Shown here one piece after another: positions 20,501 to 25,248 of a DNA stretch of 32,920 nucleotides. The stretch spans positions 1 through 32,920 of the forward strand of contig JAFQSP010000006.1 of assembly GCA_017409475.1 (NCBI GenBank), in the 5' to 3' direction. The notes beneath the pieces were generated by a model that had not been told where the DNA came from, did not search any database, and was given only the letters and a program-made list of their open reading frames with translations. A program made the translations under genes and the position numbers. The stretch is from Clostridia bacterium (lineage in GTDB: Bacteria > Bacillota > Clostridia > Oscillospirales > Acutalibacteraceae). Numbering within the stretch: the first letter of the stretch is position 1; each line of letters opens with the position of its first letter.

Positions 20501-20951
20501 TGATAGTTCAATAATCAGCTACGAGCAGGTATATACCTTCTATGTAGGTGCTGATGTAAACCTCGTTGCCGTAATTGCAAAGTCATACGCAGATGCTAAG
20601 CCGGTTACAGACGTTACTGATGTTACCTTAATCGAAAACGGTAAAAAGGCAACATTCCTTACCGAGCGTACAGTTCCTACCGGCTATACGGTTGTTAAAT
20701 CAGGCGTAATCTATACCGCTGATGAAACAAAGGCCGAATCGCTTACAGTTGATAATGTTGGCGATAAGATTTATACAAAGACAGCTGCATCAACATTGCC
20801 TAACGGTCAGTTGAGACTTACGCTTTCGGCAAAGAACGGCTCAGCAATCACAGTATACGTTGTTTCGTACCTTACCTATCTTGATAACGTAGGAAATGAA
20901 TATACAATTTACTCCGACGTATTCAGTGCAACAACCGTTGCCGCTTCATAA
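17583..20951 (+). CDS. Large secreted SGNH/GDSL-type esterase with InlB-like repeat modules
   Basis: The start at 17583 has AGGAGG at a good distance; the frame opens seven codons earlier without one. The 1122-residue product has a signal peptide (about 1-33, ending VSAAE). A beta-rich N-terminal domain (about 45-235) comes next, then an SGNH hydrolase domain (about 256-455). Its blocks are GDS with nucleophile Ser265, Gly299 in NAGVSGT, Asn336 in GTND, and Asp432/His435 in DKLHPN. A second LamG-like beta domain (about 480-680) follows, then at least two divergent InlB/bacterial-repeat modules (GYMFSKWVDGNG; GYEFGYWLDSFGN) and a further beta tail. No sorting signal or membrane anchor ends it, so it is probably released or held non-covalently. 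The family deacetylates polysaccharides or cleaves other esters; the substrate is unknown. Confidence 0.9.
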   Translation: MKTALFRAISAVLSVIMLVSMMSCLFGITVSAAEVEKDSGNMPTYIFDTAYWETNYKEYSKALPDGSTRFNYLVHGDLGTTLMNEAIEFDVKSPNDWAVGLRCDSLFTDGYRVGYNGQHLFIARISDTSTILATSVCDATYTDLYNPSQWHRVKITFEDTNNYTSIEVEIDDKPVPFVDNAIYSTSNINVLESVLTDRKTLGGKFYDFDPIRRELNTYIEINPEKIAQTAMTAAINPRGVMYLRSVDADLTNATDPYRITFIGDSITHGVAVKHNQTLSHEVNELLGYNYDCYNAGVSGTMAYVGIGRNQTYVYQNQFVAAKGNRADLVVVMLGTNDSRCIMDSDEVMFTGDELESWHQRWLTEYSDLVDAVNYEGTQLVFVTPPWLCIQNWTDETIRKMGEWVRELADMYDNAVLFDMYAVTENKPEWLDDKLHPNATGYENMASAFTTWLVNESGISLNKTAARTIDISPVDNSDYKEAHSAVINNYSGTFNKNNFNIISSSYDVELGDNYIQAMDSDVAAIMGAISNDKYSLGSKWSVTFQYKQPSTPSKTIDPATTNWVAGQYRYSNMTIGNIELKMYHFKNSNTSNYTSGYRVLYNNIDVIDPVAANNFLADATYKVEYLRGELKITRTNDNFTICNVDLKDLDNPVAADYRFDNLRLAMTMYESEAYCRWDTLIVESSDPVVGNYDITPTENGHIEVDGVILDSENKLYIGENVVLKAVCDTEGYMFSKWVDGNGNKLSTDTEYPLSITEDEIVIKAVFEKFCAYADMNISAQAGGKYYIDGAAYDYNKDYLVGEEVTLSAEANSGYEFGYWLDSFGNIASDKASFKVTLTLNTEYTAVFFTTGATNATIVFVGRGGVITGTQTVAVGSSLTLPKMPNSYGYTSLYWDVNGATMDAGDTFTVQQSLVIKAVYSRDEAQYTVSVEGGTIDGRQSKTFAYNTKVTVAFDNSLLGDDEAFLGWHNAASTNDSSIISYEQVYTFYVGADVNLVAVIAKSYADAKPVTDVTDVTLIENGKKATFLTERTVPTGYTVVKSGVIYTADETKAESLTVDNVGDKIYTKTAASTLPNGQLRLTLSAKNGSAITVYVVSYLTYLDNVGNEYTIYSDVFSATTVAAS

Positions 20952-20972
20952 GTCGAGCGAAGACCAATCCTC

Positions 20973-21436
20973 TAAATAACTAAAACAAATCACGCTATGC
21001 ATTGTAGAAATGTTCTTAGCGAACATTTCTACAGCTCTATTCGCCTGACGGCGAGTTGTATTGCTGCGCAGTGATATTCGGCTTTCAGCCGAGTGATATT
21101 TGCTTCGCAAGTTTATGGGCGAATAGAATATCACTGAAGCCGCAAGGCTTTAATATCACTTTCTTTTGAAATATTTCGCCATAGGCGAGGGATTTTCAAA
21201 AGAAAATATCACGCTGACTTTGGTCAGCATATCACTCAACAGACAAAAAGAAAGAGAAGACTCGTAATATACGAATCTTCTCTTTTCTGTTGTTAATGGG
21301 TTTGAGCTACTGCGCAAGTGCATTTGTACATACAAATGCGATGCTGGTTCTAACTTAATATATTATTGATTGCTAAAATAAAAAACTTCGCTAACAGCGT
21401 TATGCATTTCGCATAGCGTGATTTTTTAGCTATTTA
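20973..21436. repeat. Non-coding element with ~26-bp terminal inverted repeats, MITE-like
   Basis: The gap between the convergent esterase and lipoprotein genes is bounded by matching inverted ends. The left end at 20973-21000 and the complement of the right end at 21411-21436 share TAAATA(A/G)CTAAAA, then, after a 2-base indel, AATCACGCTATGC. The right end stops two bases before the stop codon of the neighbouring gene. The interior holds no reading frame of note but many perfect hairpins: 21003-21015/21021-21033 (13 bp), the array at 21037-21235, a long imperfect AAAGAGAAGA/TCTTCTCTTT stem at about 21238-21291, and 21320-21328/21331-21339 (9 bp). No clear target duplication was seen. It may be a MITE-type mobile repeat or a compound terminator between converging genes. 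Confidence 0.65.
21037..21235. repeat. Array of small hairpins separated by GTGATAT / ATATCAC words
   Basis: Two GTGATAT words (21071-21077, 21093-21099) are followed by four complementary ATATCAC words (21128-21134, 21153-21159, 21206-21212, 21229-21235). Between them sit perfect mini-hairpins: TCGGCT-TTC-AGCCGA (21078-21092), TTGC-TTC-GCAA (21100-21110), AAGCC-GCAA-GGCTT (21137-21150), a 12-bp TTTCTTTTGAAA stem (21160-21171/21194-21205) enclosing TCGCC-ATA-GGCGA, and GCTGAC-TTTG-GTCAGC (21213-21228). CTATTCGCC at 21037-21045 can also pair with GGCGAATAG at 21118-21126. The heptamers can pair across the centre, giving a branched cruciform or RNA. Confidence 0.85.
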
Positions 21437-21438
21437 AA

Positions 21439-22887
21439 TTATTTAGAATAGTTGATGGTTTTATCCTTTTCGATATCATCAAAGGTTATGTTCATTTTCC
21501 GGGGATTTGTGTTATATCCGACAACGCCTAAAGGATGATATCCTCCGTTAATATAATTTTCGCAGGCCAAGCGGATAGCCGGCTTATTGCACGAAGGGTC
21601 ATTGATGCTGATTGCGACAATATATGATTTGCCTGAAAGGCTTTCCGGTACTTTGGTAGATAGCTTGAAGGTATGGCTTTCGGCAGGAATGGAATATTCC
21701 TCTTTTGCAACATTATATTCGTCACCGGGATAAATTTTAGATATTTCGGCATCAAAGCGCGTGCTGTAAACGGGCTTTAACGTTTCGGTATCCAAAAGGG
21801 AAAGGGTCAAATCCCAATCGTAATAAAATGGAGCCGAGCCATCGTTTCTGATTGCAATTTCGGCATTTAAGCTGTTATCTGCTCCTATTTTTTCGGTATG
21901 TCCGAATTTTTCGATTATAAAGCGATATCCGAACGCCTTTTGAATTTCGGCAGCTCCTTCGGCGGCTGCTTTGTCGTTCTTATCGTATTGACATACCCAG
22001 CCTAATCCTGTTGCATGGAGTTTTTTTATCCACTGAATGAGCCAGTCACGATGAGCCTTATCCGAAACGGTATCGGTAGGATTATCTCCGGGTTGGGTTC
22101 TGTAATTGCCCCAGTCGTATGCAGTTTCGCCGCCGACTATGTTAGTTTTCCAGAAATCACCGCGTTCCAGTATGGGATCTACTTCATATAATGCGTCCAT
22201 ATGCCCAAAGGAATCCCAATAAACGCCAAAATCATAGTCCTTAAAATTAGATGCATATCTAATTTGCACCTTTTTATTCTTAAAGCTTTCGGTAAAAGCG
22301 TCACCTAAAACCTTTTGAGCTTCTTCCGTAATGTTTTCGGGCAAACCAAGCTTGTTTCCGTACAGGTGCTGTTCTCCCCAGAAACCGTACATTCCCATTT
22401 CGATATAAGCAATGCGAGGGTCATTGTCCCAAGCTTCGCCCATTTTTTTAATCAGATTGACCGCTCTGTCATAGAATTCCTGACTTGTAAAATCGTATTT
22501 TACCATATCTTCAGGCCAGTATTCGTCATTATTTACTCGGTCTGCACCCGGCCATACCAAATATACTCGCGGAATAATACGAATATTTCTTTCGGGCATA
22601 TCGCCCCATTTTTCGTTGGTGTAGTCTATAATTTCCTGAACGGTGGAATCGGCATTTTTTTCAATTGCATTCCACGGTACATAATCGCGTATGGTTGTAA
22701 TATATCCGTCGGTTTGGTCCATAAAGCCGCCTCTGAATCCGCACATCGGATTCGAAAAAGCGTCCTCGTATTCATTCGGTTCTATAAAAATCATGTTGGT
22801 TACACCCGCTTTTTCACAGGATGAAAAGGAAAGGGTCAATGCAATGATTGCAATTAAAGCCGTGATTTTGATAAAATAATGTTTCAT
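21439..22887 (-). CDS. DUF4832/DUF4874-type lipoprotein, glycosidase-like
   Basis: The 482-residue product has a lipoprotein signal peptide with lipobox SFSSC (Cys24), so it is anchored outside the membrane. The next part (about 38-335) resembles the DUF4874/DUF4832 pair: NPMCGFRGGF near the N-terminus, WGDMPERNIRIIPRVYLVWP, an EMGMYGFWGEQH strand end with acidic residues typical of a TIM-barrel glycosidase, and GLGWVCQYDKN. A C-terminal beta-sandwich (about 335-470) follows. From memory these domains occur in proteins annotated as beta-galactosidase-like or carbohydrate-active, but no activity is established. It has its own TTGACA/TAAAAT promoter. It is convergent to the esterase gene, and both could act on glycans at the cell surface. 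Confidence 0.8.
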   Translation of the reverse strand: MKHYFIKITALIAIIALTLSFSSCEKAGVTNMIFIEPNEYEDAFSNPMCGFRGGFMDQTDGYITTIRDYVPWNAIEKNADSTVQEIIDYTNEKWGDMPERNIRIIPRVYLVWPGADRVNNDEYWPEDMVKYDFTSQEFYDRAVNLIKKMGEAWDNDPRIAYIEMGMYGFWGEQHLYGNKLGLPENITEEAQKVLGDAFTESFKNKKVQIRYASNFKDYDFGVYWDSFGHMDALYEVDPILERGDFWKTNIVGGETAYDWGNYRTQPGDNPTDTVSDKAHRDWLIQWIKKLHATGLGWVCQYDKNDKAAAEGAAEIQKAFGYRFIIEKFGHTEKIGADNSLNAEIAIRNDGSAPFYYDWDLTLSLLDTETLKPVYSTRFDAEISKIYPGDEYNVAKEEYSIPAESHTFKLSTKVPESLSGKSYIVAISINDPSCNKPAIRLACENYINGGYHPLGVVGYNTNPRKMNITFDDIEKDKTINYSK

Positions 22888-24109: not shown

Positions 24110-25248
24110 TATTTGTATTGTTTTCGGTGTTTGGAGGTGCGGGGTGGTATCTCGCGCGCAGAACATACCGAGGCTTTTCTGCACTTTTCCCGAAGGTGCG
24201 GTTTTGGCCTTTTTTGGTCGGCATCGTTACGCTCGTTTTGCTTTTGGTGCTTGGATTTGCGCGTTCGTTTTTGCCGTTTCCCGCAGAATTAAAGCATATT
24301 TTTGGCATCATCGGAAGCTATTGTATGGGAATTATACTGTATTTTCTGCTGTTTACGTTGGTTGCCGACGTTATATTTATCGTCCCTCGACTTTTAAAAC
24401 TGTCCTTTACGGTACACCGCTTTTTTAGGGGATTTGTTACCGTGGGTGTGCTGACTTTAACGTTGATTACCTGTGTGGGTGGATTTATCAACGCCCGAAG
24501 AATAGATCACGTATCCTATGAGGTCGAGCTTGACGGAGGATGCGATATTTCGGATATGAACATAGTGATGATCAGTGATCTTCATTTAGGCGCTGTTGGT
24601 TCTGAGGGACGGCTTGAGAAGATAGTTGACGAAATCAATTCGCTTAAGCCTGACGTGGTGTGCATTGTGGGTGATTTTTTTGATACAGATTTCTCGGCTG
24701 TCAAGGACCCCGATGCCGCTGTTGAGACACTTTTAAAATTACAGCCCACATACGGCACCTACGCTTGCTTTGGAAACCACGATGGCGGAGAGAGCAACGG
24801 TCAAATGGTGGAATTTTTGGAAAGAGCCAATATTTGCTTGCTTCGTGAATCCTATACGGTAATAGACGAACGCCTTGTGCTGATAGGTCGACTTGACGGC
24901 TCGCCCATCGGAGATTACAGTGAAGGGAAAAGAGGAAAACTGTCCGAGTTTTTTGTTCGAAATGATGCGGAAATGCCCGTAATCGTAATGGATCACAACC
25001 CCGCAAGAATTGATGAGTACACCACTGAGGCAGATCTAATACTCTGCGGTCATACTCACAAAGGTCAGGTATTTCCCGGTGGAATACTTACCGACTTAAT
25101 GTATACCGTGGACTACGGGTATTACAGAAAGGACACTCAAAGCCCTCACGTGATAGTTTCTTCGGGCATTGGTTGGTGGGGACCGCCTATGCGGGTTGGA
25201 ACAAATAGCGAGATAGTTTCCGTGAGATTTTCTTGCGGTGACAGGTAA
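24094..25248 (+). CDS. Membrane-anchored metallophosphoesterase (YkuE/YaeI-like)
   Basis: The start ATG at 24094 follows GGGAGGG directly; the frame is open further upstream but without a site. The 384-residue product has an N-terminal membrane part with about four hydrophobic helices (residues 1-135). A calcineurin-type phosphoesterase domain follows with all metal motifs: DLHLG, GDFFD, GNHDGG, and CGHTHKGQ near the C-terminus. Such YkuE/YaeI-like proteins are thought to hydrolyse phosphoester or pyrophosphate bonds of lipids or nucleotides at the membrane; the substrate here is unknown. The gene seems intact, while both its flanking genes are truncated chimeras, so it may have arrived with a joined segment. 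Confidence 0.9.
   Translation: MFGVVIFVLFSVFGGAGWYLARRTYRGFSALFPKVRFWPFLVGIVTLVLLLVLGFARSFLPFPAELKHIFGIIGSYCMGIILYFLLFTLVADVIFIVPRLLKLSFTVHRFFRGFVTVGVLTLTLITCVGGFINARRIDHVSYEVELDGGCDISDMNIVMISDLHLGAVGSEGRLEKIVDEINSLKPDVVCIVGDFFDTDFSAVKDPDAAVETLLKLQPTYGTYACFGNHDGGESNGQMVEFLERANICLLRESYTVIDERLVLIGRLDGSPIGDYSEGKRGKLSEFFVRNDAEMPVIVMDHNPARIDEYTTEADLILCGHTHKGQVFPGGILTDLMYTVDYGYYRKDTQSPHVIVSSGIGWWGPPMRVGTNSEIVSVRFSCGDR

Follow-up and report, generated by a model that had tools for sequence, protein, structure and literature searches.

The hairpin array at 21034-21236 of the window (the whole stretch of DNA that was analysed, 32,920 nucleotides) is very probably the left-end module of a mobile element whose family inserts in the loops of intrinsic terminators. 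Members of the family had inverted-repeat ends, a duplicated dinucleotide, insertion in a terminator loop, variable cargo and a conserved fold. Their targets had no sequence in common with the end of each element, only a terminator hairpin. In the window the element was about 400 bp long (21004-21405), lay in the loop of an intrinsic terminator with the array as its left end, and was hairpin-rich over its full length; no ORF of 80 aa or more was found inside 21004-21405. The parts of the element and of its target were as follows.

20987-21000, plus strand: 5' half of the host terminator stem, which the element interrupts (AAATCACGCTATGC), pairing with 21411-21424; a near-identical stem is the intact simple terminator at sister-genome loci L347 and L348
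21001-21003, plus strand: left copy of the target duplicate ATT, from sequence and sister-genome comparison
21003-21033, plus strand: h0, a palindromic hairpin that is the left terminal inverted repeat, from the inverted-repeat listing and end alignment
21034-21236, plus strand: hairpin array with four F-type and four R-type spacers and seven hairpins
21032-21104, plus strand: match to the Rfam Gut-1 RNA, 45.1 bits (gathering score 50), E 1.1e-7 in 561 bases
21123-21237, minus strand: weaker Gut-1 match in the inverted right half, 31 bits, E 4e-4
21037-21045, plus strand: 5' strand of the long-range pairing P1 (CTATTCGCC), covarying with 21118-21126
21118-21126, plus strand: 3' strand of P1 (GGCGAATAG), from covariation
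21243-21293, plus strand: hairpin h8, terminator-like on the minus strand, with similar hairpins in L047, L079 and L111
21294-21385, plus strand: 3' module of the element (GGGTTTGAGC ... AAATGC hairpins), with similar sequence in L047, L079 and L111
21386-21405, plus strand: right terminal inverted repeat (CTTCGCTAACAGCGTTATGC), from end alignment
21406-21408, plus strand: right copy of the target duplicate ATT, from sequence and sister-genome comparison
21411-21427, plus strand: rest of the host terminator (3' arm and T-run), from pairing with the 5' arm and sister-genome comparison

An earlier note on this DNA had described six copies of one heptamer, two forward and then four inverted, and all six were present (GTGATAT at 21071 and 21093; ATATCAC at 21128, 21153, 21206 and 21229). 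The cluster of six in 199 bp was beyond chance: first-order Markov simulations (n = 300) peaked at 2, and the whole window held 16 heptamer copies against a shuffle mean of 4.5. Two degenerate spacer variants lay upstream (GCTCTATT at 21034-21041 and AGTTGTATT at 21054-21062), indicating that the full plan of the array is four forward and four inverted spacers. Seven hairpins alternated with the spacers when the sequence was read, and their loops were TGAC, TGC, TTC, TTC, GCAA, long nested (at about 21161-21204) and TTTG. The same note had counted five or more perfect mini-hairpins; the number stood, but perfection did not hold throughout, the hairpin at 21136-21151 being slightly imperfect. 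The long-range pairing that it had proposed between 21037-21045 and 21118-21126 was an exact complement and covaried across copies. Since this pairing and hairpin h1 draw on shared bases, the fold might conceivably switch between the two. When folded as RNA, the array had a predicted fold z of -7.7; that of 20980-21436 was -12.7, and the outer terminator stem closed the predicted fold.

The window site was occupied by a simple terminator, AAAAAATCACGCTATGC-AAAA-CGCATAACGTGATTTTTTT, in the same-genus sister genome G003, and that of G002, likewise of this genus, was similar and simple. Both empty terminators lay behind a gene 88-89% identical to the DUF4832 gene of the window. The more distant G004 (79%) had a different terminator after its DUF4832 gene. 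At the site of the copy on contig C14 of the same genome as the window (about 1.1 kb), the same terminator was simple and without insert in G001, G002 and G003, and G004 had a different terminator and no insert. The empty terminators in relatives indicate that the stems at the window and C14 sites are host terminators and not parts of the element. Downstream of the DUF4832 ortholog in G001 (L349), another insert, about 840 bp long, occupied the orthologous terminator; it had related inverted-repeat ends and contained an ORF for an HNH endonuclease (PF01844).

The set used for comparison comprised 108 distinct array cores (5 from the genome of the window, 47 from public genomes, 1 viral and 55 from further genomes); 4 of 112 had been dropped as duplicates, and loci L001-L013 and L256-L285 were excluded as overlapping. 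A script placed an h0 hairpin just 5' of the first spacer in 94 of the 108; the remaining 14 had no F1 or no h0 by its rules, and included L016 and L135, both visibly 3' of tRNA terminators. The h0 of 69 copies was without A and T runs, like the left inverted repeat of the element, and 58 of these had sufficient flank for testing. The upstream and downstream arms paired at a score of at least 14 in 33 of the 58 testable copies, compared with 9 of 340 mismatched controls; an outer stem at score 14 was absent in 25. Five inverted-repeat-type copies, including that of the window, were filed as 'A-like' by a crude A/T rule and stood outside the 58. In the resolved cases the left arm was A-rich and the right arm T-rich, as in terminators. 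At least 13 of the 108 copies had an h0 that started 0-2 nt past a tRNA gene (aragorn) and was itself terminator-like; a right end was resolved in none of these tRNA-linked copies. Identical h0 hairpins stood behind different tRNAs in different genomes (tRNA-Ser in L313 and tRNA-Gln in L301; tRNA-Tyr in L024 and tRNA-Gln in L311), so h0 seems to move with the array. Several copies ran directly into the apparent promoter of the next gene, as judged by eye. The region behind tRNA-Cys varied among four genomes of the genus (L016, L357, L358 and L372) in its terminators and in most of its small genes, and looked like an insertion hot spot. Another short repeat (ACTTTTTACCT..TTCACTTTTCACTAAA), perhaps another terminator-targeting element, lay inside or behind terminator stems in L304 and in the G003 region downstream of tRNA-Cys (L357).

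Ends were aligned in 35 copies and were imperfect inverted repeats of uneven score, from 10 to 30, the lowest being unconvincing; the window copy scored 19.5. The adjoining dinucleotide (TA, TT or AT) was duplicated in all 17 copies in which both ends fitted the patterns, and the duplication covered three bases in 8 of the 17. One subfamily had no dinucleotide but TA; the informative one was therefore the other, with TT in 9 copies and AT in 3. When the ten target bases beside the insertion were compared with the element end in 18 copies, 55 identities were found, compared with 54.7 after shuffling. The target arm is thus unrelated to the element end, indicating that the target is recognised by something else, most simply the hairpin. 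A 10-bp target duplication at the window, first suggested by a 7/10 identity between element end and target arm, was rejected; the window was an exception and general homology was lacking. At 21386-21424 the right end of the element resembled the left arm of the terminator, and a second complete local terminator hairpin (21397-21419) could form there. A further right-end match, at 24401 of the window, was taken as chance because it lay inside an open reading frame.

Larger copies with both terminator halves (0.6-1.7 kb) carried unrelated ORFs. The Pfam scan covered the HNH ORF and 20 proteins that were either cargo or neighbours of arrays or element ends. The cargo included VanW (L344), a 23S_rRNA_IVP protein together with an AraC protein with a Cass2 domain (L299), and TetR (L345); that of L050, L297 and L017 had no Pfam family, and the match in L337 was below the cut-off. 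ORFs beside right ends encoded VanZ (twice), GNAT, methyltransferase, AraC, HAD and LRR proteins, and two had no convincing family; for several of these the right end alone was observed, which makes their membership less certain. The part of the ORFs scanned in the copies inspected gave no transposase or recombinase gene, and defence models matched nothing but one generic HTH protein, encoded behind an array next to a tRNA gene. A 2-kb ABC-transporter cassette (L407/L411, G004:C48:40604-42591) had inverted ends in a terminator loop and no hairpin array.

The earlier note had said that it would be wrong if arrays were limited to this site or if the copies did not covary. Arrays were found in many genomes. 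The genome of the window had five copies, one each in the window and on C8 and C14 and two on C10. A pattern scan of public genomes gave at least 118 stretches, many in Clostridia and Oscillospiraceae MAGs labelled ruminant gut; unrelated bacteria and archaea, apparently chance matches, also stood among the matches listed. The core with at most one mismatch was present in 42 of 148 genomes (that of the window included) at 1 to 17 matches per genome, and some single one-mismatch matches may be chance, the reversed control having matched once each in two genomes. Copy numbers could diverge sharply within a genus (17 in G112 vs 0 in G131). MAG assemblies break at repeats. The order of the hairpins recurred across genera. 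Stricter viral scans gave 0 matches, and a looser one gave one real copy recognised among the matches listed (L148), in IMG/VR contig 3300018495_002688 near a phage capsid ORF (PF05065). A viral scan with the Gut-1 spacer gave 98 stretches, with no array recognised in the 6 contigs passing a filter, and the C14 copy's left end found no match among plasmids. A separate palindromic repeat (CCTCCCTTGTGCAAAGGGAGGTGGC ... GGAGGGATTG) was observed directly downstream of the array in L041, at about 350-500.

Covariation among the copies was strong. In a structure alignment of 55 of the 95 available sequences, chosen for variety, 96.2% of pair cells held standard pairs, falling to 32-46% when the structures were slid. 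Both-sided changes occurred in 171 pair cells, compared with 47.9 in shuffles, in agreement with the earlier claim that the folded form is under selection. The variable base of P1, whose segments are about 70 nt apart, was Watson-Crick paired in 96 of the 98 cores (among the 108) with a readable F1 (A-T 34, T-A 34 and C-G 28) and G-U in one more; shuffled data averaged 32.7 and never exceeded 50. Because the identity of this base seems to go with subfamily, the number of copies overstates that of independent events. Hairpin h1 was nearly invariant and was therefore not probed by covariation. Pairing between forward and reverse spacers was weak within the subfamily of the window (best z 2.7; 54 copies with eight spacers found). 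A generic array finder gave nine places with other spacers, L418 and L437 being the same place; L101 and L132, also from this finder, were rejected as not being hairpin arrays. In sister subfamilies (L130, L345, L418, L432, L434 and L435) a spacer change in one half was matched in the other half and in the long-range pair, as listed.

L130: spacers GTGAAAT/ATTTCAC
L432: spacers AGTGAAGTT/AACTTCACT
L434: spacers GATGAAATC/GATTTCATC
L435 and L345: spacers GCGATAT/ATATCGC
L418: spacers TGATGTT/AACATCA

The two halves of the array differed in loops and wobble pairs. Frequent loops of the right half were GAA, GCAA, AAA, GTAA and GCA, and those of the left half were mostly reverse complements (such as TTC, TTAC and TAC); GNA loops are very stable in DNA. 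G-U outnumbered A-C mismatches 13:2 in the right half and stood at 1:4 in the left half, both ratios resting on small numbers. This split by half fits recognition on opposite strands, and thus folded DNA more than one RNA. Selection may act on different strands in the two halves, a pattern for which a single transcript would not account. Energies were compared in the 12 copies passing a length filter. RNA parameters favoured the plus strand for the left half (12/12) and the minus strand for the right half (11/12), against the opposite-strand reading; DNA parameters agreed weakly with the strands given by loops and wobbles (9/12 for each half). We take it only tentatively, at a little under even odds, that folded DNA hairpins are the form in which the array is recognised.

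Nothing in the window matched Rfam at the gathering score, and the Gut-1 match (RF01706) in the feature list came from a permissive search; the right-half match was missing from a shorter Gut-1 search with E up to 0.01. At the gathering score, Gut-1 was found in 6 of 16 other array loci, including the four other copies of the same genome (no match in the other 10), and in 2 of 6 sister-array loci (no match in 4); the loci that passed were these four copies together with L097, L299, L130 and L434. The spacer of L130 was that of the Gut-1 consensus. The left half of the window array looks homologous to Gut-1 and has the same hairpin-spacer plan, although its score stayed short of the gathering value. 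The difference is that here the motif makes up half of an inverted array within a mobile element, and that many of the MAGs concerned are labelled ruminant gut. Gut-1 was filed as a 77-nt sRNA, and the excerpted text of the 2010 paper has it as certainly an RNA, not cis-regulatory, from the human gut only and with no function given there (PMC2864571). Among the papers searched by name or accession, the 2010 description was the one match.

Gut-1 as filed would make the array a stand-alone structured RNA, acting for example as a 3'-end or regulatory sRNA. The covariance-model matches, the strong covariation, the fold z values of -7.7 and -12.7, the preference of RNA parameters, in 12/12 copies tested, for the left half's plus strand and the grading as certainly RNA in the part of the 2010 paper available (PMC2864571) all favour this explanation. 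However, the array is inverted and Gut-1 covers its left half alone, the right half being a mirror image with loops and wobbles fitting the opposite strand. The copies are inserted in terminators that differ from one another, with target bases duplicated, several abut the apparent promoter of the next gene (by eye), and no outstanding promoter was present at 20900-21500 (2 found, 2.0 expected). We regard a free-standing RNA as quite unlikely. The earlier idea of a local RNA device acting on both neighbouring transcripts found no support; the array is the end of an element inserted in the terminator between them.

The array might instead be a mere RNA fold that keeps the interrupted terminator working and has no part in movement. 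The predicted fold of the whole insert does close the outer stem, and the hairpins extend throughout the window element. However, the 13 of 108 arrays found by aragorn behind tRNA genes follow complete terminators, with no outer stem in need of help; the array-less cassette L407/L411 sits in a terminator loop all the same, and compact folding alone requires neither constant spacers nor their concerted change. This explanation is unlikely. A neutral origin, in which template switching during replication makes palindromes perfect and local recombination makes the spacers, with no selection involved, would account for the 230 perfect hairpins among 261 distinct ones and for spacers that are homogeneous within an array, as under concerted evolution. 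It does not account for P1, whose distant segments covary in 96 of 98 copies, for the same hairpin order across genera or for the unequal counts of G-U and A-C mismatches, and we consider it improbable.

The reading that we prefer is the mobile element with the array as its left end. Members are probably moved in trans by an outside enzyme, because no transposase or recombinase gene was seen in the copies inspected. The hairpins would be extruded from both strands, given their inverted orientation, and the mobilising enzyme would read the array as folded DNA. After landing in a terminator loop, the compactly folded element would let the outer stem still form, so that insertion may be cheap for the host. 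The 2-bp duplication may reflect the action of a DDE transposase, or else mark where a site-specific recombinase has its crossover core. IS30-type HTH_38, Y1_Tnp and DDE_Tnp_1_6 gained no support as mobilisers, since none tracked copy number across 25 genomes. PF01797 (Y1 transposase) was detected in 8 of the 14 carriers and in 4 of 11 genomes used for comparison, and was not found in carriers G001, G004, G008, G100, G112 and G146, all counts being from incomplete MAGs.

A bolder proposal, which we put forward as speculative and more doubtful than not, is a new gene-mobility system. Folded hairpin arrays would serve as cassette ends and any intrinsic-terminator hairpin as an attachment site by shape, a trans-acting recombinase would swap cargo across Clostridia as integrons do at attC, and the Gut-1 'RNA' would be a DNA attachment module. 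The results provide context for the Gut-1 motif, listed without function in 2010, and point to a class of mobile elements in terminator loops, where neighbouring genes stay intact and the terminator stem can re-form. Genes for regulators, an acetyltransferase, VanZ-like proteins and transporters occur in relatives, so the system may be a route by which genes spread between uncultured Clostridia of the gut. The results also raise the question of which enzyme recognises terminators by shape.

No description of such an element was found among the matches listed in the literature searched (spacer, terminator-targeting elements, mobile cassettes and Gut-1). The pneumococcal BOX, RUP and SPRITE MITEs are described in the excerpts available as short, intergenic and highly folded, with inverted-repeat ends and no transposase, BOX being modular (PMC3049150, PMC10969869). 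The present element shares shortness, intergenic position, folding, inverted-repeat ends and the lack of a transposase with them; terminal inverted repeats, several of them weak, and a target-site duplication were both found. It differs in its insertion in terminator loops, its seven different hairpins with constant spacers and the cargo genes of its larger members. REP/BIME sequences, with their RAYT transposases, are inverted hairpin sets with a constant flanking motif, and both the inverted sets and the constant motif beside them recur here. However, the stems vary freely here, and the Y1 transposase that a RAYT link would call for went undetected in 6 of 14 carriers, among them G112, the genome with most copies. 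Group IIC introns prefer terminators and are alike in this preference; no group II intron family, judged by domain V, matched in Rfam at gathering in the window and 22 other loci. Mobile insertion cassettes and integron gene cassettes likewise carry cargo without a transposase of their own. A passenger gene in place of a transposase was found in the larger relatives, the window copy being without an ORF of 80 aa or more, and the cargo types (GNAT, VanZ, regulators and a Cass2-domain protein) are ones that we take to resemble those of integron cassettes. In contrast to integron and mobile cassettes, the elements described here stand alone at scattered terminator loops, are bounded by terminal inverted repeats and have a dinucleotide duplicated beside them.
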